This document shows positions 17,403 to 25,036 of a stretch of 64,000 nucleotides of DNA, in pieces. The notes under the pieces were generated by a model. It was given only the letters and a program-made list of their open reading frames with translations, did no database searches and was not told the origin of the DNA. Location: the NCBI RefSeq assembly GCF_000263735.1, contig NC_017946.1, positions 289,348 to 353,347 of the forward strand, read 5' to 3'. The stretch comes from Pyrococcus sp. ST04. GTDB lineage: Archaea > Methanobacteriota_B > Thermococci > Thermococcales > Thermococcaceae. A program made the position numbers and the translations under genes. Position 1 is the first letter of the stretch. Each line of letters opens with the position of its first letter.

Positions 17403-18707
17403 TCATGGATAAATTCTGGCAGGTGTTCTTGGGAAGAGTGCTGCCCATCTTATGTGGTCGAGCTTTAAGACCCATGCAACTAATCTCTCAACACCAAGTC
17501 CGAATCCACTGTGTGGAACGCTTCCGTATCTCCTCAAGTCGAGATACCACTCATAATCTTTTGGATCCATCCCTTCTTCTATTATCCTTTGGACTAGCTT
17601 ATCATAGTTATCCTCTCTCTCTGATCCACCTATGATTTCTCCATATCCCTCTGGGGCCAGCATGTCGGCTGCAAGAACTTTTCTTGGATCTTGTGGGTCT
17701 TCTTTCATGTAAAATGCTTTTATATGCTTTGGATATCCATAAACGAAGAAAGGTCTGTCAAATTCTTCTGTGAGAACTCTCTCTTCATCAGCTCCCATGT
17801 CGTCTCCCCATTCTATCTTTACACCCTTTTTCTGCAGTATTTCTATTGCTTCATCATAGCTAATTCTTGGAAATGGAGGTTCAGTGTTCTTTAGAGTTGT
17901 CAAGTCATCCCTAAACATTTCGATTTCTTTTCTTCTTAATTCTAGCGTTCTCTGAACCATATAGCTCACTAGCTCCTCCTCGACTTTCATAATGTCCCAG
18001 AGATCCATCCATGCCGCTTCAAGTTCTAGGTGCCAAAATTCTGTTAAGTGCCTTCTTGTTCTGCTTTTTTCGGCTCTAAAACTTGGGGTTAGGGACCAAA
18101 CCTTTTCAAGACCAAATATCGCCGCTTCAAGGTAGAGTTGAGCGGATTGGCTTAGGTAGGCGTATTTGTCGAAGTATTTTAGTTTGAAGAGTGTCGCTCC
18201 CCCCTCAACTGCTCCAGTTACGAGGATTGGGGGGAATACTTCGTGCCAGCCCTCTCTGAGTAGCCATTCTCTTGCGGCCATGATTAGGGTCTCTTTAACT
18301 TTCATTATTGCAGAAACCTTTGGAGACCTTATGTGTAGATGCCTATAATCTAAGAGAAGCTCGGGGCTAGCTTGATCGGGGTTTTCGGGAATTGGAAATT
18401 CACTTACTGTCTGTATAACTTCCAGTTTTTCCACGTGAACTTCTGCCCCTCCGGGAGCTCTCTCGTCTGCTTTGACGATTCCTTCAACTATCACACTAGA
18501 TTCTCTTCCAAGTTTCTTTGCTTTTTCAAATATTTCCTCTCCGACGACGTTTTTTGCTATTACAGTCTGGACTATTCCAGTTGAATCTCTTATCCAAAGG
18601 AATATTTTCTTTCCAACCCTCATGTTGCTGTAGACCCATCCGGCAAGTCTTACTCTTTGTCCATCGAGCTCTGGTTTTATCTCAGAGCAATAGGTTTTCT
18701 CTATCAT
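17403..18707 (-). CDS. asnS: Asparaginyl-tRNA synthetase
   Basis: A class IIb synthetase of about 434 residues. It has an N-terminal OB fold for the anticodon (VRLAGWVYSNMRVGKK), motif 2 (FRAEKSRTRRHLTEFWHLELE) and motif 3 (GFGLGVERLVAWV). The GGSEREDNYDKL segment and WYLDLRRYGSVPHSG favour AsnRS over archaeal AspRS. The start ATG 18707 follows AGGTGATAAAG; the GTG at 18716 overlaps this site. A strong TATA (TTATATATAAAAGG on the minus strand) lies about 45 bases upstream. Two small RNA genes lie further upstream on the same strand. Confidence 0.9.
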   Translation of the reverse strand: MIEKTYCSEIKPELDGQRVRLAGWVYSNMRVGKKIFLWIRDSTGIVQTVIAKNVVGEEIFEKAKKLGRESSVIVEGIVKADERAPGGAEVHVEKLEVIQTVSEFPIPENPDQASPELLLDYRHLHIRSPKVSAIMKVKETLIMAAREWLLREGWHEVFPPILVTGAVEGGATLFKLKYFDKYAYLSQSAQLYLEAAIFGLEKVWSLTPSFRAEKSRTRRHLTEFWHLELEAAWMDLWDIMKVEEELVSYMVQRTLELRRKEIEMFRDDLTTLKNTEPPFPRISYDEAIEILQKKGVKIEWGDDMGADEERVLTEEFDRPFFVYGYPKHIKAFYMKEDPQDPRKVLAADMLAPEGYGEIIGGSEREDNYDKLVQRIIEEGMDPKDYEWYLDLRRYGSVPHSGFGLGVERLVAWVLKLDHIRWAALFPRTPARIYP

Positions 18708-18745
18708 CTTTATCACCTGTGACCGTTACTTGGCATTATTGTTGG

Positions 18746-18760
18746 CCTTTTATATATAAG
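18746..18760 (-). promoter_or_regulatory. TATA box of asnS
   Basis: On the minus strand, CTTATATATAAAAGG is a near-ideal archaeal TATA box. It predicts transcription start near 18730, giving a leader of about 23 bases before ATG 18707. Confidence 0.7.
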
Positions 18761-18816
18761 TCCTTCGGTTTTTTATCGTAATTTGTCTAATTTTCCGAAA
18801 CAAAATTGTCAGAAAG

Positions 18817-18875
18817 AAGGTCAGCGAAGGGCGTGATCATCATCTATTCAGCAAAGCAAAAGTTCTTCATCCCTT
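18817..18875 (-). ncRNA. C/D box guide sRNA
   Basis: Read on the minus strand, the order is: C box GGGATGA (18873-18867), a 15-base guide, D' box CTGA (18851-18848), a 4-base spacer, C' box ATGATGA (18843-18837), a 12-base guide, and D box CTGA (18824-18821). Flanking AAGG and CCTT can form the terminal stem. These spacings are those of archaeal 2'-O-methylation guides. The D guide is complementary to CGAAGGGCGUGA and predicts methylation of the fifth base of that target. Its 5' end coincides with the 3' ACA tail of the H/ACA RNA, so the two are probably made as one precursor. The C box has G in place of the usual U at position 2. Confidence 0.75.
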
Positions 18876-18933
18876 GTAGGCCCGGCCGGAACCCCCGGTT
18901 CATGGATCCCCGGAGAGGGCGGGAGCCGGGCCC
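18875..18933 (-). ncRNA. H/ACA box guide sRNA with K-loop
   Basis: This is a GC-rich island in AT-rich surroundings. On the minus strand an 8-bp outer stem (GGCCCGGC with GCCGGGCC) is followed by U and an ACA box. Inside are a pocket and an upper stem (CUCCGG with CCGGGG), closed by GGAUCCAUGAA. That loop carries the same GAU...AUGA pattern as the K-loop of the structurally studied P. furiosus H/ACA RNA Pf9. The pocket strands (CCCGCC and UUCC) match GGAA-UU-GGCGGG in archaeal 16S rRNA, the target of the Arch915 probe. This predicts pseudouridine at the first U (E. coli 920 by my count). The unpaired U lies 14 bases from the ACA, as required. Confidence 0.8.
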
Positions 18934-18952: not shown

Positions 18953-18963
18953 AAAATATAAAA
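18953..18963 (-). promoter_or_regulatory. Promoter of the H/ACA-C/D sRNA pair
   Basis: The minus strand reads GCAAAGTTTTATATTTTC: a TATA box (TTTATATT) with a purine-rich BRE-like run before it. It sits about 26 bases upstream of the predicted 5' end of the H/ACA RNA at 18933. Confidence 0.6.
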
Positions 18964-19044
18964 CTTTGCGAAAGATGTAAATAGTTATTGGCTGTACTTA
19001 TTATGATAGAGGGCCTCTTCTTGGGGTCCTTGGAGGTGCTAAGT

Positions 19045-20085
19045 TTGAAAAAGTTGGCATTGTTAAGCTTGGCGATCGCTGTTCTAATGATCAGCGGTTG
19101 CCTTGGAGGTGGGGGGACTTCTACAATAGTTCCCTCTAGTAATGGAGAAGATGAGCAGTACACTCAAACAGAAACACCCGAAACGTCGGAGATCCCTACA
19201 GAAACTCAAACTCAAAGTGAAACCTCACAGGAAAAAGCTTCATGGGCTTCTCCCTGGGACATATCCTCCCCTATAACTGTTGATGGGAGATCATACAAGA
19301 TAGTGGCCATAAAGTATAGGTACAAAGTTAGACATCCTGATTCAGAGAAGGTTTTCGAGTACATAGTTGAGAAGAGAAAAAGCCAAACTGAGATAATGCT
19401 CTATGGTGGGGAATTAAATCTTGAGAGTGGCAATGTGGAAAAAGTGGAAATTGGAAAAGTGAAAGTCTATGAGTACTATACAAAATTAACTCCGGTCTCT
19501 GGAGAATTTGGTGATCCGGTAGAGTTCTATGTGTGGACATCTGATCCAAGTAGCGTTGATACGTACTTTGCTTATCCCGCCTCAATGACGTTGCTACTAG
19601 CACCAGGAGTTGTTGCAACAAAGGTTGCTAGTGGGGACAAGTTTTACATCTTCTACAATCCCCCAGGAATAGGGAACTATGATTATATGCCCTATACGGA
19701 GGGAAGTTTGGACTGGTTTAAGAACTCCAAGGATGTTGAGAGTTTGTACTTGAGCTTTATGGTCGTTACAACATTCCCATTCTGGGGAGCTTTGGAAGAG
19801 GATAATCTCTACTCTCCTCATGAGGAGTCCTATTCAGTTTTGGGGTTCTCTTATAACTATCGTGTGACTCCTGACTCTGAAGTGTCCATAAGTGAACATA
19901 CGTATAGAACTTCAAAGGTGGAGTGGACGTACTCTATTCCTGGAGGAGGGAACGGTAAGGGCTCTGCACTTATATCAGCCTCTCTTCCGATCCCAATAAA
20001 GCTTGAGGGAGTTTTTGTGTCTCCCCAGGGAGACGGGTGGTATCTTTCTATGGAACTCCTCGAGCTTGGCCTCGAGGAGGCCTGA
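19045..20085 (+). CDS. Secreted lipoprotein, function unknown
   Basis: A protein of about 346 residues. I place the start at TTG 19045, six bases after GGAGGTG. This gives a clean lipoprotein signal (MKKLALLSLAIAVLMISGC) with the lipobox Cys at residue 19. A Thr/Glu/Ser-rich spacer of about 50 residues follows, as in other Thermococcales surface proteins. The mature domain is mostly beta (for example YKIVAIKYRYKVRH), and no enzyme motif is seen. I do not recognise the family. It stands alone, divergent from the sRNA/asnS locus and convergent with aglB, which may glycosylate proteins of this type. Confidence 0.75.
   Translation: MKKLALLSLAIAVLMISGCLGGGGTSTIVPSSNGEDEQYTQTETPETSEIPTETQTQSETSQEKASWASPWDISSPITVDGRSYKIVAIKYRYKVRHPDSEKVFEYIVEKRKSQTEIMLYGGELNLESGNVEKVEIGKVKVYEYYTKLTPVSGEFGDPVEFYVWTSDPSSVDTYFAYPASMTLLLAPGVVATKVASGDKFYIFYNPPGIGNYDYMPYTEGSLDWFKNSKDVESLYLSFMVVTTFPFWGALEEDNLYSPHEESYSVLGFSYNYRVTPDSEVSISEHTYRTSKVEWTYSIPGGGNGKGSALISASLPIPIKLEGVFVSPQGDGWYLSMELLELGLEEA
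20056..20079 (+). terminator. 9-bp hairpin at the end of the lipoprotein gene
   Basis: CTCCTCGAG and CTCGAGGAG form a perfect 9-bp inverted repeat with a 6-base loop. It lies over the last codons of the lipoprotein gene. T-runs follow at 20089-20102 (CCTTTTTAAATTTTT). This looks like an intrinsic terminator, or an element that blocks read-through into the C/D RNA downstream. Confidence 0.5.
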
Positions 20086-20117
20086 ACCTTTTTAAATTTT
20101 TAAGAAAAGAAAAATGT

Positions 20118-20174
20118 GGGATGATGAATTTTTCCCTCACTCTGAGCTATGATGAGGAGCCGATGCTCTGACCT
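20118..20174 (+). ncRNA. C/D box guide sRNA, antisense to the 3' end of aglB
   Basis: On the plus strand: C box ATGATGA (20121-20127), a 14-base guide, D' CTGA (20142-20145), a 3-base spacer, C' ATGATGA (20149-20155), a 12-base guide, and D CTGA (20168-20171), then CC pairing with GG before the C box. All four boxes are perfect. A TATA-like TTTTTAAATTTTT lies about 25 bases upstream. The D guide predicts methylation of the U in AGCAUCGGCUCC. The D' guide can pair with GUGAGGGAAA, a segment I remember as highly conserved in 23S rRNA. It overlaps the last 35 or so bases of aglB on the other strand. Confidence 0.85.
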
Positions 20175-23070
20175 CAAGCATGACGTATTCCTTCTCTGCT
20201 ATGAAAACTGGTTCTACTCTTATTCCTCTGATTATAAGCTTGTCTCCGTATTCGGCTTCAAGTTTCTTCTTATAATCACTTATAACGTTCTCGGGCATCT
20301 TTGCTTCTACTGTTACTTCATTTTCCCCTTTATGCAGGCTTATTCCTGACTTGAGTTTAGTTATAAAGAACACGTCCATATGAGGCTCAAATGCTGCATT
20401 GTAGTCGTCGTTACTTGTTCCGGATTTTCTGACTAGGTATATGAAGGTGGCCCTGAGGTAGAGGTCGGCTTTGTAGTCTTTGTCAACACCAACTTTCAAT
20501 TCAAGTCTTCCTGATTCTCCATCATTTAGAACTCTAACTGGATTAGCTATCTTTCCATTAACCTTGGGTGGTGCTGTTAGGACTCCAACTGGGCCTTTTT
20601 GTACTAGGACAAACTTATACTTATCGGCATCTGGTAATGTGACGTTTACTGTTATTGGTGTTTCATTGAGATGGCTCATGTACTTAATCTCGCCGATCTT
20701 TATCCTCTGAATTGTCCTGTTGTCCTTAATTGCATCAATATAAAGGGTTGCGTTTTTTATATCCCTTCCAAAGGCTGAGATGTATAATTTTAATGTATGT
20801 TTGCCTGGGGATAGTGTAGTTATGGTTTTCCATGTTCCATTTGTGAATTCTTGAAGCTTGTATATTGCAAACGGTCTGAATTCGTAAATAACAACGTTTC
20901 CTTCCTGGTATACCATTTTGAAGTTAGAGAAAAGCTTATCAGTAAATCCGGGCTCTTTGGATGCCGGTATCCCATATGCAAGCTTCAGAAAGTTGCTTGT
21001 TGCTACCTTATAATATGAGATTACTCCTAAAGTTGGGGTTAAATAAACAACGAAGGGAAAGCTACCTCCGTTGGTACATGATCCTTGCCCTTTTACCTTT
21101 TTGTTTCCCGGTATGAAAACTGTCATCAACGGACTACATGTAGTTGATCCAATCGTTACTGTAACCTGGGAATTGTTGAGTACTTTTATGGAAACTCCAT
21201 TGTATGGGTTTATGTACTGCTCTCCGAATCTTGGAGCTAAAATAATTGTTGGGATGCTACCTCTTCCTTTTTCATCTCCACTGTATTCCCTCTTTGTTAT
21301 TGCCCCTCCAAGGTAACTTATTGCATTGAATTTGGCCCAATCGTTTAGGTAAACTATGAAGTAATTTAACTCCCAGCTTTCAAAATCAACTTCGCTGACA
21401 TTTCCATCTCTTGCGAGGAAGAGTGCGAGGATATGATCTCTATCCCTTGCATGACCTCCATCGGCACTTGCCCTTCTATTTCCAAGGAGGCTTGATTCTA
21501 TCCAGTATCCATAGTCCCACCAAGAAGTTGCGGTGGCATACTTTGGCGTGTTGTTCCTGAGCCATTTCAATGCCTGTTCCCATCCTGATGTTTCGACCTC
21601 TGTTTTGCTCATGGCCTTTGCACTCCTTGCAAGTACAGGACCGTGTGTTATTGGGATCAGTAGAATCATTATTGAGATAACAATTGCAAGGGCGGCTTTT
21701 ATTCCCACGTTCTCTTTCATCTTCTCTATAACTTCCAGACCATATCCAACAAGAATGCCTGCAAATAGGGCTATTGCATAACTTGCTAAGAATAGGAATC
21801 TGACAGCCAAGCTCATTAAGTATATTGACATGACATAGAATGTTATTCCAAGTAGTTCTTTATTTGGACTCTCGCTTTTGCTCCAAAGTCCTATTAGATA
21901 TAGACTAAGCATTATCAAGAATCCAGGTATGCTAAGGAAGAAGATTAGCCCATTCGCTTTTTCTACACCGTAGTAAAGCTTTATGTCCTGCATGCTTGTC
22001 TTTGCGAGCTCTTGAACAGTCTGGTATACTTGCGTTGATTGGTATGCTCCTCCCATAAGCCTAAAGAGCTTAGGGCCAACATATGCATAGGCTCCAGCAA
22101 ATCCTATGAGTACTATAATGGCAACTACAAGGAATCTATGCTTCTTGTCGGAGTAGTTCAAGAATTTTTCTCCATAAAGCATGACAATTGCTAGGAATAC
22201 GAGACCAAGGAACACTTCAAATGCGAACCTTATAAAGCTCTGAATCTTAGCAAGTCCAGGGATAGTTAGCAGGTAGCTGAGTATTAGAACTGAGACATAA
22301 GCGGGGTAAAATTCTTTGATGAACTTCTTTAGCTCGTCAATTTTTCCAAAGATAAAGAGGGCTATGGTCTGGAGAGATGCAAACCCTAGGAGTACCATTA
22401 AGCCAAAGGGAGAACCATTCCAGGCCATTGTGGAAAGTCCGGCTAGAATTACAAAAAGGGCTCCCCACACGGCTTTTCTCTTTATTCTAGCTTCTTCAAG
22501 GTAATACAACAATGCAACCATGGAGAAAACGAATAGCATCATAAATGGTCCGTCACCTCTAGCATTTCCCGAGAAAGTTCTTGAAAAGTTTGCCGTAGAC
22601 ACTGCTAGGATTGCAGCGGCCCATAGGCCTGCCCACTCATTGAGAATTTTCCTTCCTAAAAGGTATACACCAATAACACTTAGGAAGCCAACGAACGGAG
22701 GCCATAGCAAAAACGCTTGAAACTCGTTGTATCCAAAAGCTGAGAGAATCTTGTAAAATATGGCTGGGAGAATATATAGACCTAGAGGCTCGCCAATCAA
22801 GCTACCAAAGGGAGCATCTGACATTGGGTAGTATTTTGGTAGCCCCTCTTTTAGAACAAGCTTATAGATTTCATAGTGATAAAAAGTGTCTGGGTCTGGA
22901 AAATACTTACCGGCTGTTAAGTGTCTTATGTGGAAAGCATACCATGCGAAAATCAGCGTGACAATAAATGTTAATGCTAGTTTTATCTTTCCATAGTGTC
23001 TAGATATGTTTCCTATTTCTCTCTTTTCTTTTCTATCTTTCTTTTCTCTTTTAACTTCGACTTTTACCAA
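20137..23070 (-). CDS. aglB: Oligosaccharyltransferase AglB (STT3)
   Basis: A protein of about 977 residues that transfers lipid-linked oligosaccharide to Asn in N-x-S/T sequons on the outer face of the membrane. The N-terminal half has about 13 TM segments. A catalytic DxD lies in the first external loop (FPDPDTFYHYE), and SGNARGDGP follows. The soluble half begins near TSWWDYGYWIE, the WWDYG signature, and continues as a beta-rich domain. The length fits the long AglB-L group. I chose TTG 23070, five bases after GGGGTGA; the ORF reaches TTG 23091, overlapping glmS. With glmS just upstream it forms a natural operon: GlmS supplies amino sugar for glycan synthesis. Confidence 0.93.
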   Translation of the reverse strand: MVKVEVKREKKDRKEKREIGNISRHYGKIKLALTFIVTLIFAWYAFHIRHLTAGKYFPDPDTFYHYEIYKLVLKEGLPKYYPMSDAPFGSLIGEPLGLYILPAIFYKILSAFGYNEFQAFLLWPPFVGFLSVIGVYLLGRKILNEWAGLWAAAILAVSTANFSRTFSGNARGDGPFMMLFVFSMVALLYYLEEARIKRKAVWGALFVILAGLSTMAWNGSPFGLMVLLGFASLQTIALFIFGKIDELKKFIKEFYPAYVSVLILSYLLTIPGLAKIQSFIRFAFEVFLGLVFLAIVMLYGEKFLNYSDKKHRFLVVAIIVLIGFAGAYAYVGPKLFRLMGGAYQSTQVYQTVQELAKTSMQDIKLYYGVEKANGLIFFLSIPGFLIMLSLYLIGLWSKSESPNKELLGITFYVMSIYLMSLAVRFLFLASYAIALFAGILVGYGLEVIEKMKENVGIKAALAIVISIMILLIPITHGPVLARSAKAMSKTEVETSGWEQALKWLRNNTPKYATATSWWDYGYWIESSLLGNRRASADGGHARDRDHILALFLARDGNVSEVDFESWELNYFIVYLNDWAKFNAISYLGGAITKREYSGDEKGRGSIPTIILAPRFGEQYINPYNGVSIKVLNNSQVTVTIGSTTCSPLMTVFIPGNKKVKGQGSCTNGGSFPFVVYLTPTLGVISYYKVATSNFLKLAYGIPASKEPGFTDKLFSNFKMVYQEGNVVIYEFRPFAIYKLQEFTNGTWKTITTLSPGKHTLKLYISAFGRDIKNATLYIDAIKDNRTIQRIKIGEIKYMSHLNETPITVNVTLPDADKYKFVLVQKGPVGVLTAPPKVNGKIANPVRVLNDGESGRLELKVGVDKDYKADLYLRATFIYLVRKSGTSNDDYNAAFEPHMDVFFITKLKSGISLHKGENEVTVEAKMPENVISDYKKKLEAEYGDKLIIRGIRVEPVFIAEKEYVMLEVRASAPHHSSE

Positions 23071-23083
23071 AGATTTCACCCCC

Positions 23084-24880
23084 TTACTCAACGGTTACAG
23101 ATTTTGCTAAGTTCCTAGGTCTATCTGGATTATGACCCTTAATTACAGCTAAGTGATATGCTAATAACTGTAACGGAACAACATACACTATCGGTGATAG
23201 CTCTTCTGGAACTCTTGGCATTCTCAGAAAAACATCACTAACGTTAGACAGTCTGATATCGTCTCCTAGGGATATTATATGCCCACCCCTGGCCTTTGCT
23301 TCTTCTATATTGGAGAGCATTTTTTCAAACACCTTACCGCTAGGAGCAACAGCCACAACTGGGACTCCCTCTTCTATTAGGGCGAGGGGTCCATGTTTAA
23401 GTTCTCCTGCGGATAGTCCTTCTGCATGTACGTAAGCTATCTCCTTTATCTTAAGGGCTCCTTCTAAAGCAGTTGGGACACTTATCCCCCTTCCAATGTA
23501 GAAGAAGTCTCTCTTCCCCTTGAGCTCATGAGCAAGTGTTTTTATCTTTTCATCAAATTTAAGGACAGAATCTACTATCTCTGGCAGTCTTGGGATGTGC
23601 TTCTCTATACTTTGGACATCGATTCCAATTCTTTTGGCGAGGCTAAGTGATAGTAAAGTTAAAACAGTCAACTGAGTGGTGTATGTCTTTGTTGCGGCAA
23701 CTCCAATTTCTGGCCCTGCGTGGGTGTAGAGGGTCATGTCAGCGATCCTAGTAGCTAAGCTTCCAACGACATTAACTATTCCAACGACTTTGGCCCCTTT
23801 GCTCTTTGCTAACTTCATGGCTGCAACGGTATCTGCAGTCTCTCCACTCTGAGTTATGGCAATAACGAGCGAGCTCTCGTCGATGATATTTTCATATTCA
23901 TACCTGAATTCACTAGCGTCCTCCACTATGACAGGTGTTCTTCCCATCCTTTGAATCAGGTACTTGCCAACAAGCGCCGCATGATAGGATGTGCCCATTC
24001 CAATTATAATTATCCTCTCGTATTTGGATACCAACTCGGCGACTTTGTCAATTACCTCAATATTTCCATAAACGGCATCTTTTATCGCTCTTGGTTGCTC
24101 AAATATTTCTTTGAGCATAAAGTGCTCATATCCCCCTTTTTCAGCCATCTCCAATGTCCAAGATATTTCATGAACATGCTTAACCTTGGGCAATCCCGTT
24201 ACTATGTCCCTTATTTGAAACCAATCCTTATGCACAACTCCATATTCACCATCGTCTAAAAATACGGCCTTTCTAGTATGGGCTAAGAATGCTGGAATAT
24301 CACTGGCTATGAACATCTCTCCATTTCCTATTCCGATTATCAATGGACTATCTTTCCTTGCAATGTAAAGTCTCTCTGGATCATCTGCAAAGAGAACAAC
24401 AAGGGCATATGAACCTCTAAGCCTTAGTAGCGTCATCCTAAAAGCATCTTCAAAATTTTTGGTTATTCTCAAGTTCTCTTCTATTAGATGGGCAATAACC
24501 TCAGTATCCGTATCACTCTTGAATACATGCCCCTTTTTTAGCAGTTCCTCCTTTAGTTCTTGGAAATTTTCTATTATTCCATTGTGGACAACGGCAATTT
24601 TCCCTGTACAATCCGTATGGGGGTGGGCATTTATGTCGTTAGGAACTCCGTGGGTTGCCCATCTTGTATGACCGATTCCAATATTTCCAGGGAGTTCTTG
24701 TAATTTGAGCTTTTTAATGAGCTCATTTATTTTTCCGGCTCCTTTTTTGATGAATATCCTACCTTCATAACAAGTTGCAATTCCCGCTGAGTCATATCCT
24801 CTGTATTCCAACCTTTTCAATCCTTCGACAATAATCGGAGAAGCCCTTTTTGGGCCAATGTATCCAATAATACCGCACAC
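23084..24880 (-). CDS. glmS: Glutamine-fructose-6-phosphate aminotransferase
   Basis: A 598-residue enzyme that makes glucosamine-6-phosphate from fructose-6-phosphate and glutamine. The start codon is GTG followed by TGC, so after Met removal Cys is N-terminal and acts as the glutaminase nucleophile (CGIIGYIG). HTRWATHG and HNGIIEN are the glutaminase motifs. Two SIS sugar-isomerase domains follow ([13 protein letters not shown] and [17 protein letters not shown]), and the C-terminus ends in AKSVTVE, the invariant tail. It lies directly upstream of aglB. No glmS ribozyme-like leader is seen, as expected for an archaeon. Confidence 0.96.
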
Positions 24881-24977: not shown

Positions 24978-25036
24978 GGCGGGGATGAGCTGGATCCGAA
25001 CTGATTTAGGATGATGAGGGAGGTACAGCCTGAGCC
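24978..25036 (+). ncRNA. C/D box guide sRNA, antisense to the 3' end of the metalloprotease gene
   Basis: On the plus strand: C box GGGATGA (24982-24988), a 12-base guide, D' CTGA (25001-25004), a 5-base spacer, C' ATGATGA (25011-25017), a 12-base guide, and D CTGA (25030-25033). GGC before and GCC after form the terminal stem. Both guide lengths are exactly 12, the archaeal norm. Predicted targets are UUCGGAUCCAGC (D') and GCUGUACCUCCC (D). A TATA-like GATTTAAGG lies about 26 bases upstream. The RNA overlaps about 30 bases of the metalloprotease coding region on the other strand. Confidence 0.82.

Follow-up and report, generated by a model that had tools for sequence, protein, structure and literature searches.

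A Pab21-type H/ACA RNA joined to the C/D RNA sR9 forms a probable dicistronic guide-RNA gene in Pyrococcus sp. ST04

On the minus strand of the 64,000-nucleotide stretch of Pyrococcus sp. ST04 DNA analysed here (the window), a match to the Rfam family RF00065 (snoR9) covers positions 18808–18933, scoring 140.1 bits against a gathering cut-off of 90 and spanning model positions 1–128 of 128. This full-length match and the box anatomy listed below bear out the first-pass annotation of the locus, which had read joined H/ACA and C/D guide RNA genes on this strand; the extent that it gave, 18817–18933, identifies the right locus, but the Rfam match is slightly longer. From 18933 down to 18817 there is no gap between the two RNAs, and the C/D RNA begins, as had been proposed, at the last A of the ACA box, where the terminal stem AAGG/CCUU opens. 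The features of the unit and of the gene next to it are as follows.

18953–18960, minus strand: TATA-like box assigned to the unit, TATATTTT, roughly 27 bases upstream of the 5′ end of the H/ACA RNA
18875–18933, minus strand: H/ACA guide RNA of 59 nt, orthologous to Pab21 of P. abyssi and made up of lower stem, pocket, upper stem, K-loop and ACA
18918–18925, minus strand: 5′ guide strand of the pocket, CUCCCGCC, predicted to pair with GGCGGGGG of 16S rRNA
18888–18891, minus strand: 3′ guide strand of the pocket, UUCC, predicted to pair with GGAA of 16S rRNA
18875–18877, minus strand: ACA box, whose last A can open the C/D terminal stem
18817–18875, minus strand: C/D guide RNA sR9, with boxes C, D′, C′ and D
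18870–18864, minus strand: sR9 box C, AUGAAGA
18851–18848, minus strand: sR9 box D′, CUGA
18843–18837, minus strand: sR9 box C′, AUGAUGA
18824–18821, minus strand: sR9 box D, CUGA
18875–18872 and 18820–18817, minus strand: sR9 terminal stem, AAGG with CCUU
18852–18863, minus strand: sR9 D′ guide, 10 bp with 23S 212–221
18825–18836, minus strand: sR9 D guide, 12 bp (one G-U) with 23S 51–62
18759–18750: TATA-like run between the RNA unit and asnS
17403–18716, minus strand: asnS-like aminoacyl-tRNA synthetase gene, next downstream, named from reading the open reading frame

The H/ACA part also stands out by composition. Its 59 nt are 76% G+C, compared with 42% for the window, and only 5 of the 63,941 segments of that length in the stretch are equally GC-rich, all 5 of them at the H/ACA locus; the GC-rich island described earlier is therefore the richest 59-nt stretch of the window. 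Energy folding of 18933–18875 gives the lower and the upper stem, with an energy not better than that of shuffled sequences (z −1.37, 19/200 as good), and the fold energy of the C/D half gives no support either (z +1.46 against shuffles). Because energy alone does not beat shuffles, the H/ACA fold rests on homology and covariation.

Covariation was scored in an alignment, A1, of 62 H/ACA parts (44 distinct), which excludes two rows with damaged hairpins (L062 and L066) and retains one (L058) that has ACG for ACA and is partly misaligned. Across the 9-bp lower and 6-bp upper stems, standard pairs occupy 97.1% of cells, whereas shuffled alignments reach 89.9% and slid ones no more than 56.5%; the corresponding covariation scores are 0.284, 0.157 and no more than 0.088. 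Changes on both sides are found in 9 of the 15 stem pairs, so that covariation in related genomes, which the earlier reading had named as a check, is strong. The GA and UGA of the K-loop are invariant in all 44 distinct rows, and the ACA is present in 43 of them, with ACG in the remaining one. By its stems, pocket, K-loop and ACA, and by a pocket predicted to pair on both sides of an unpaired UN, the 5′ half thus has the make-up of an archaeal H/ACA guide.

The 3′ half has the make-up of an archaeal C/D sRNA, with four boxes, a terminal stem and guides of about 12 nt. Box C reads ATGANGA in all 62 genomes where the two halves are joined, and a terminal stem of 3–6 bp is found in 61 of these joint loci under the rule used by our script, which scored P. 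abyssi as 0. The D′–C′ spacer of sR9 is at least 10 nt longer in eight genomes of genus g3 (G038, G025, G028, G040, G033, G039, G044 and G054; the long-spacer loci are L055, L056, L059, L060, L063, L064, L065 and L103), and the extra spacer forms a GC-rich hairpin in most of the seven g3 loci that were folded.

The joined pair is one more instance of the curated Rfam family snoR9, and the finding is real but not new, because the pair is already known in Pyrococcus and its relatives. The accessible text of a 2008 paper describes snoR9 as containing both a C/D and an H/ACA sRNA and names P. abyssi, P. furiosus, P. horikoshii and T. kodakarensis (PMC2241582), and that of a 2015 paper has the P. 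abyssi snoR9 transcript begin, at its 5′ end, with the H/ACA guide Pab21. Our matches in the genome G004 coincide exactly with the published Pab21/snoR9 coordinates of P. abyssi. The order, strand, lengths, boxes and type of locus are the same here as in RF00065 and in P. abyssi Pab21 + sR9, and they differ only by the usual divergence of sequence, as in the K-loop. Pab21 is described as a single K-loop hairpin that assembles and is active in vitro (PMC3726423, in part). The hairpin had been called Pf9-like, a label that we consider mistaken because the 2015 paper, in the part available, gives Pf9 as the Pa160 ortholog: Pf9/Pa160 is likewise a Pyrococcus H/ACA guide, but a different one, set apart from the Pab21 of RF00065 by published assignment.

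A scan for a TATA-like 8-mer, by consensus match only, points to a single promoter. A match of at least 6/8 starts 28–39 nt before the H/ACA part in 56 of the 62 joint loci, and in the stretch from −45 to −20 of the C/D half there is no match above 4/8 in any of the 62, the window included. Of the 17 loci without the hairpin that were scanned, 16 have such a TATA-like box starting 28–40 nt ahead of the C/D part, many of these genomes being AT-rich. The TATA-like box TATATTTT at 18960–18953 agrees with the TATA that had been noted before the first RNA. With this box in front of the H/ACA part, no good one in front of the C/D part and a single transcript published for P. abyssi, the suggestion of a dicistronic precursor holds up well, and the unit would be served by a single promoter ahead of the H/ACA RNA, the C/D RNA having no promoter of its own.

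The rRNA targets of the guides are predicted from pairing. When both rRNAs of the genome were scanned, the H/ACA pocket fitted 16S U879 (AA[UU]GG; numbering from the Rfam match) with 8 + 4 bp, a position that we take to be 920 in E. coli. Judged from the single sequence the statistics of this duplex are weak, as 5 of 60 shuffled rRNA sets gave an equally good one. Some 23S pocket sites with a higher raw score were set aside; their pocket boundaries are incompatible with the covarying stems. In the alignment, guide columns 12–17 and 44–47 stay paired with 16S in 43 or 44 of the 44 distinct rows, and 14 cells with U for C remain paired as G-U; the weaker columns are 11, paired with 16S in 17/44 rows, and 48, in 7/44. 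The guide columns could be conserved for reasons other than 16S pairing. The earlier assignment of the first U of AAUUGG as the site to be pseudouridylated is nonetheless supported, as a prediction, by guide conservation over the 44 distinct relatives. The target U of Pab21 precedes another U according to the accessible text of PMC3726423, as is the case in AAUUGG; its mapped position was not found in the literature searched, most subscription papers being outside reach. For sR9, both guides obey the fifth-guide-base rule, and the predicted 2′-O-methylations fall on 23S G55 for the D guide (2/200 shuffles as good) and on 23S G215 for the D′ guide (4/200 as good; numbering from the Rfam LSU match).

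Our reading, to which we give a probability of about 0.95, is that the locus is the dicistronic guide-RNA gene snoR9, in which a Pab21-type H/ACA RNA and the C/D RNA sR9 are made from one promoter and guide modification of 16S and 23S rRNA. The promoter would yield a precursor of about 117–126 nt, which would be cut near the ACA. The 5′ hairpin would assemble with Cbf5, Nop10, Gar1 and L7Ae and guide pseudouridylation at the first U of AAUUGG in 16S rRNA, and the 3′ part would assemble with L7Ae, Nop5 and fibrillarin and guide methylation at the two 23S sites. The homology, anatomy, covariation and guide conservation of the unit are direct observations, and transcription as one RNA is reported for P. 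abyssi in the part of the 2015 paper available; we infer which proteins bind at this locus, which sites are modified and that the precursor is cleaved near the ACA.

To follow the unit through the family we searched 94 genomes. RF00065 matches 83 of them at E 0.001 (59 above the gathering cut-off). The 11 genomes that it missed were searched with a loose pattern, six stretches being read, and among the matches listed only G054 shows sR9, without the hairpin; adding it gives 84 genomes with sR9. No sR9 was found by these searches in the other 10 of the 94 (G003, G034, G045, G046, G050, G052, G055, G063, G064 and G083), most of which are drafts, with G034 consisting of one contig. Outside the family, RF00065 gave two weak matches in six genomes of the class, the best at E 0.31 and none above the cut-off.

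An intact H/ACA part lies upstream of box C in 62 of the 84 sR9 genomes. Of the remaining 22, 18 have no hairpin, two have a partial one (G092 and G066) and two a damaged one (G091 and G056). The hairpin is absent throughout genera g4 (12/12 with sR9), g2 (2/2) and g6 (1/1), and G092, of genus g5, keeps only the H/ACA 5′ half. In the decaying H/ACA parts of G092 and G091 (loci L068 and L062), the 3′ arm carries the same AT-rich replacement, GAAGAAATAA. In an asnS tree of 54 rows (52 of the 94 family genomes and 2 outgroup genomes), G092 groups with G086, which has an intact hairpin, with support of 100/95, and we therefore conclude that the hairpin was lost in the G092 lineage. The deep forks of this tree lack resolution and its outgroup branches are very long; with regard to g2, g4 and g6, the history of the H/ACA part may be either a gain or an early loss.

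A relocated Pab21 was sought in all 94 genomes with an H/ACA model, R1, under stricter filters that weak copies may escape. The model scores at least 59 bits in 62 of the 94, always at the sR9 locus, and among the matches listed it gives no strong Pab21 copy away from sR9. Weaker R1 matches were rejected as relocated copies, all 11 of the loci fetched having fallen on HgcF, HgcG, HgcE or Pab91. HgcF/Pab35, HgcG/Pab40, HgcE/Pab105 and Pab91 are also ACA hairpins, but they form separate Rfam families and none was seen joined to sR9. A pocket pattern run on 11 genomes recovered the known site in both positive controls, G000 and G086, and its other matches were of the same order in number as those of a reversed-pattern control. 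We did not find in print, in the literature searched, that part of the family has lost its H/ACA half, and this loss is a modest addition to what is known of snoR9.

The 22 sR9 genomes without an intact hairpin are also what would favor regarding the C/D half as the sole working part and the hairpin as a 5′ leader or remnant. Arguing against this are the strong covariation of the hairpin and the conservation of its guide strands in the 62 genomes that have it intact, together with the activity of Pab21 in vitro reported in the accessible text of PMC3726423, and we regard it as very improbable. The unit is even less likely to be a 5′ leader belonging to asnS. It does lie about 100 nt upstream of that gene, on the same strand, in the window, and it adjoins an asnS match in 9/9 g1 genomes; the earlier placement upstream of asnS is thus true here, but such a placement was encountered in no genus other than that of the window. 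About 17–30 kb separate the unit from the asnS match in G086, G089, G092, G001 and G002, the five genomes read from other genera, and in the window itself the TATA-like run at 18759–18750 stands between the two. Both guides remain together in 62 genomes of three genera despite these changing surroundings.

The spacing of the two halves bears on a third possibility, one that we consider unlikely, namely that the joined RNA is never cut and serves as a bipartite guide on which an H/ACA particle and a C/D particle sit next to each other. The ACA and box C are 3–7 nt apart in 62/62 joint loci, and therefore the RNA is either cleaved near the ACA or occupied by two particles at once. The published account, as far as the text available goes, gives one transcript with Pab21 at its 5′ end; a transcript annotation, however, does not reveal mature ends, Pab21 is active in vitro on its own (PMC3726423, in part) and the C/D half occurs alone in other genomes. 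It is conceivable, at roughly one chance in several, that an uncut RNA couples the 16S pseudouridine with the two 23S methylations, and that its H/ACA half is a removable module lost more than once, leaving some Thermococcaceae without that pseudouridine. We favor a precursor that is cut, and processing between two RNP types, which the first-pass annotation had inferred, is plausible. No statement on processing of the snoR9 precursor was found in the literature searched, with most subscription papers outside reach, nor were sR9 or snoR9 found in the circular-RNA papers searched.

Composite guides with C/D and H/ACA domains within one mature RNA exist in eukaryotes, for example U85. The unit shares with U85 the two kinds of domain in one RNA, but here they are arranged head to tail and may be separated. 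In the tRNA-C/D dicistrons of N. equitans, as given in the accessible text of PMC3491384, the 5′ end of a C/D sRNA likewise abuts another structured RNA; there the preceding RNA is a tRNA processed by RNase Z, whereas here it is an H/ACA RNA. The snoR9 unit offers a natural experiment: near relatives that differ in having the H/ACA half, such as G086 and G092 of genus g5, could show whether the 16S pseudouridine can be dispensed with or arises by another route, and how a precursor is matured when its H/ACA and C/D parts abut.

Several further features were seen around the unit. By eye, two genes appear to converge on the unit from either side at L041, L042, L072 and other loci of g3 and g4, with their 3′ ends facing it, and the orientation of the unit differs from genome to genome. 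In the window, a lipoprotein-like open reading frame at 18988–20085 on the plus strand, with ISGCLGG in its start region, is divergent from the RNA unit. Further along, a snoPyro_CD C/D sRNA at 20117–20174 on the plus strand (51.1 bits), with a TATA-like run upstream of it, overlaps in antisense the 3′ end of a minus-strand open reading frame at 20137–23091. The C/D sRNA sR49, which is predicted in the accessible text of PMC2584109 to guide Cm34 of tRNA-Met, lies at 24978–25035 on the plus strand (58.3 bits).
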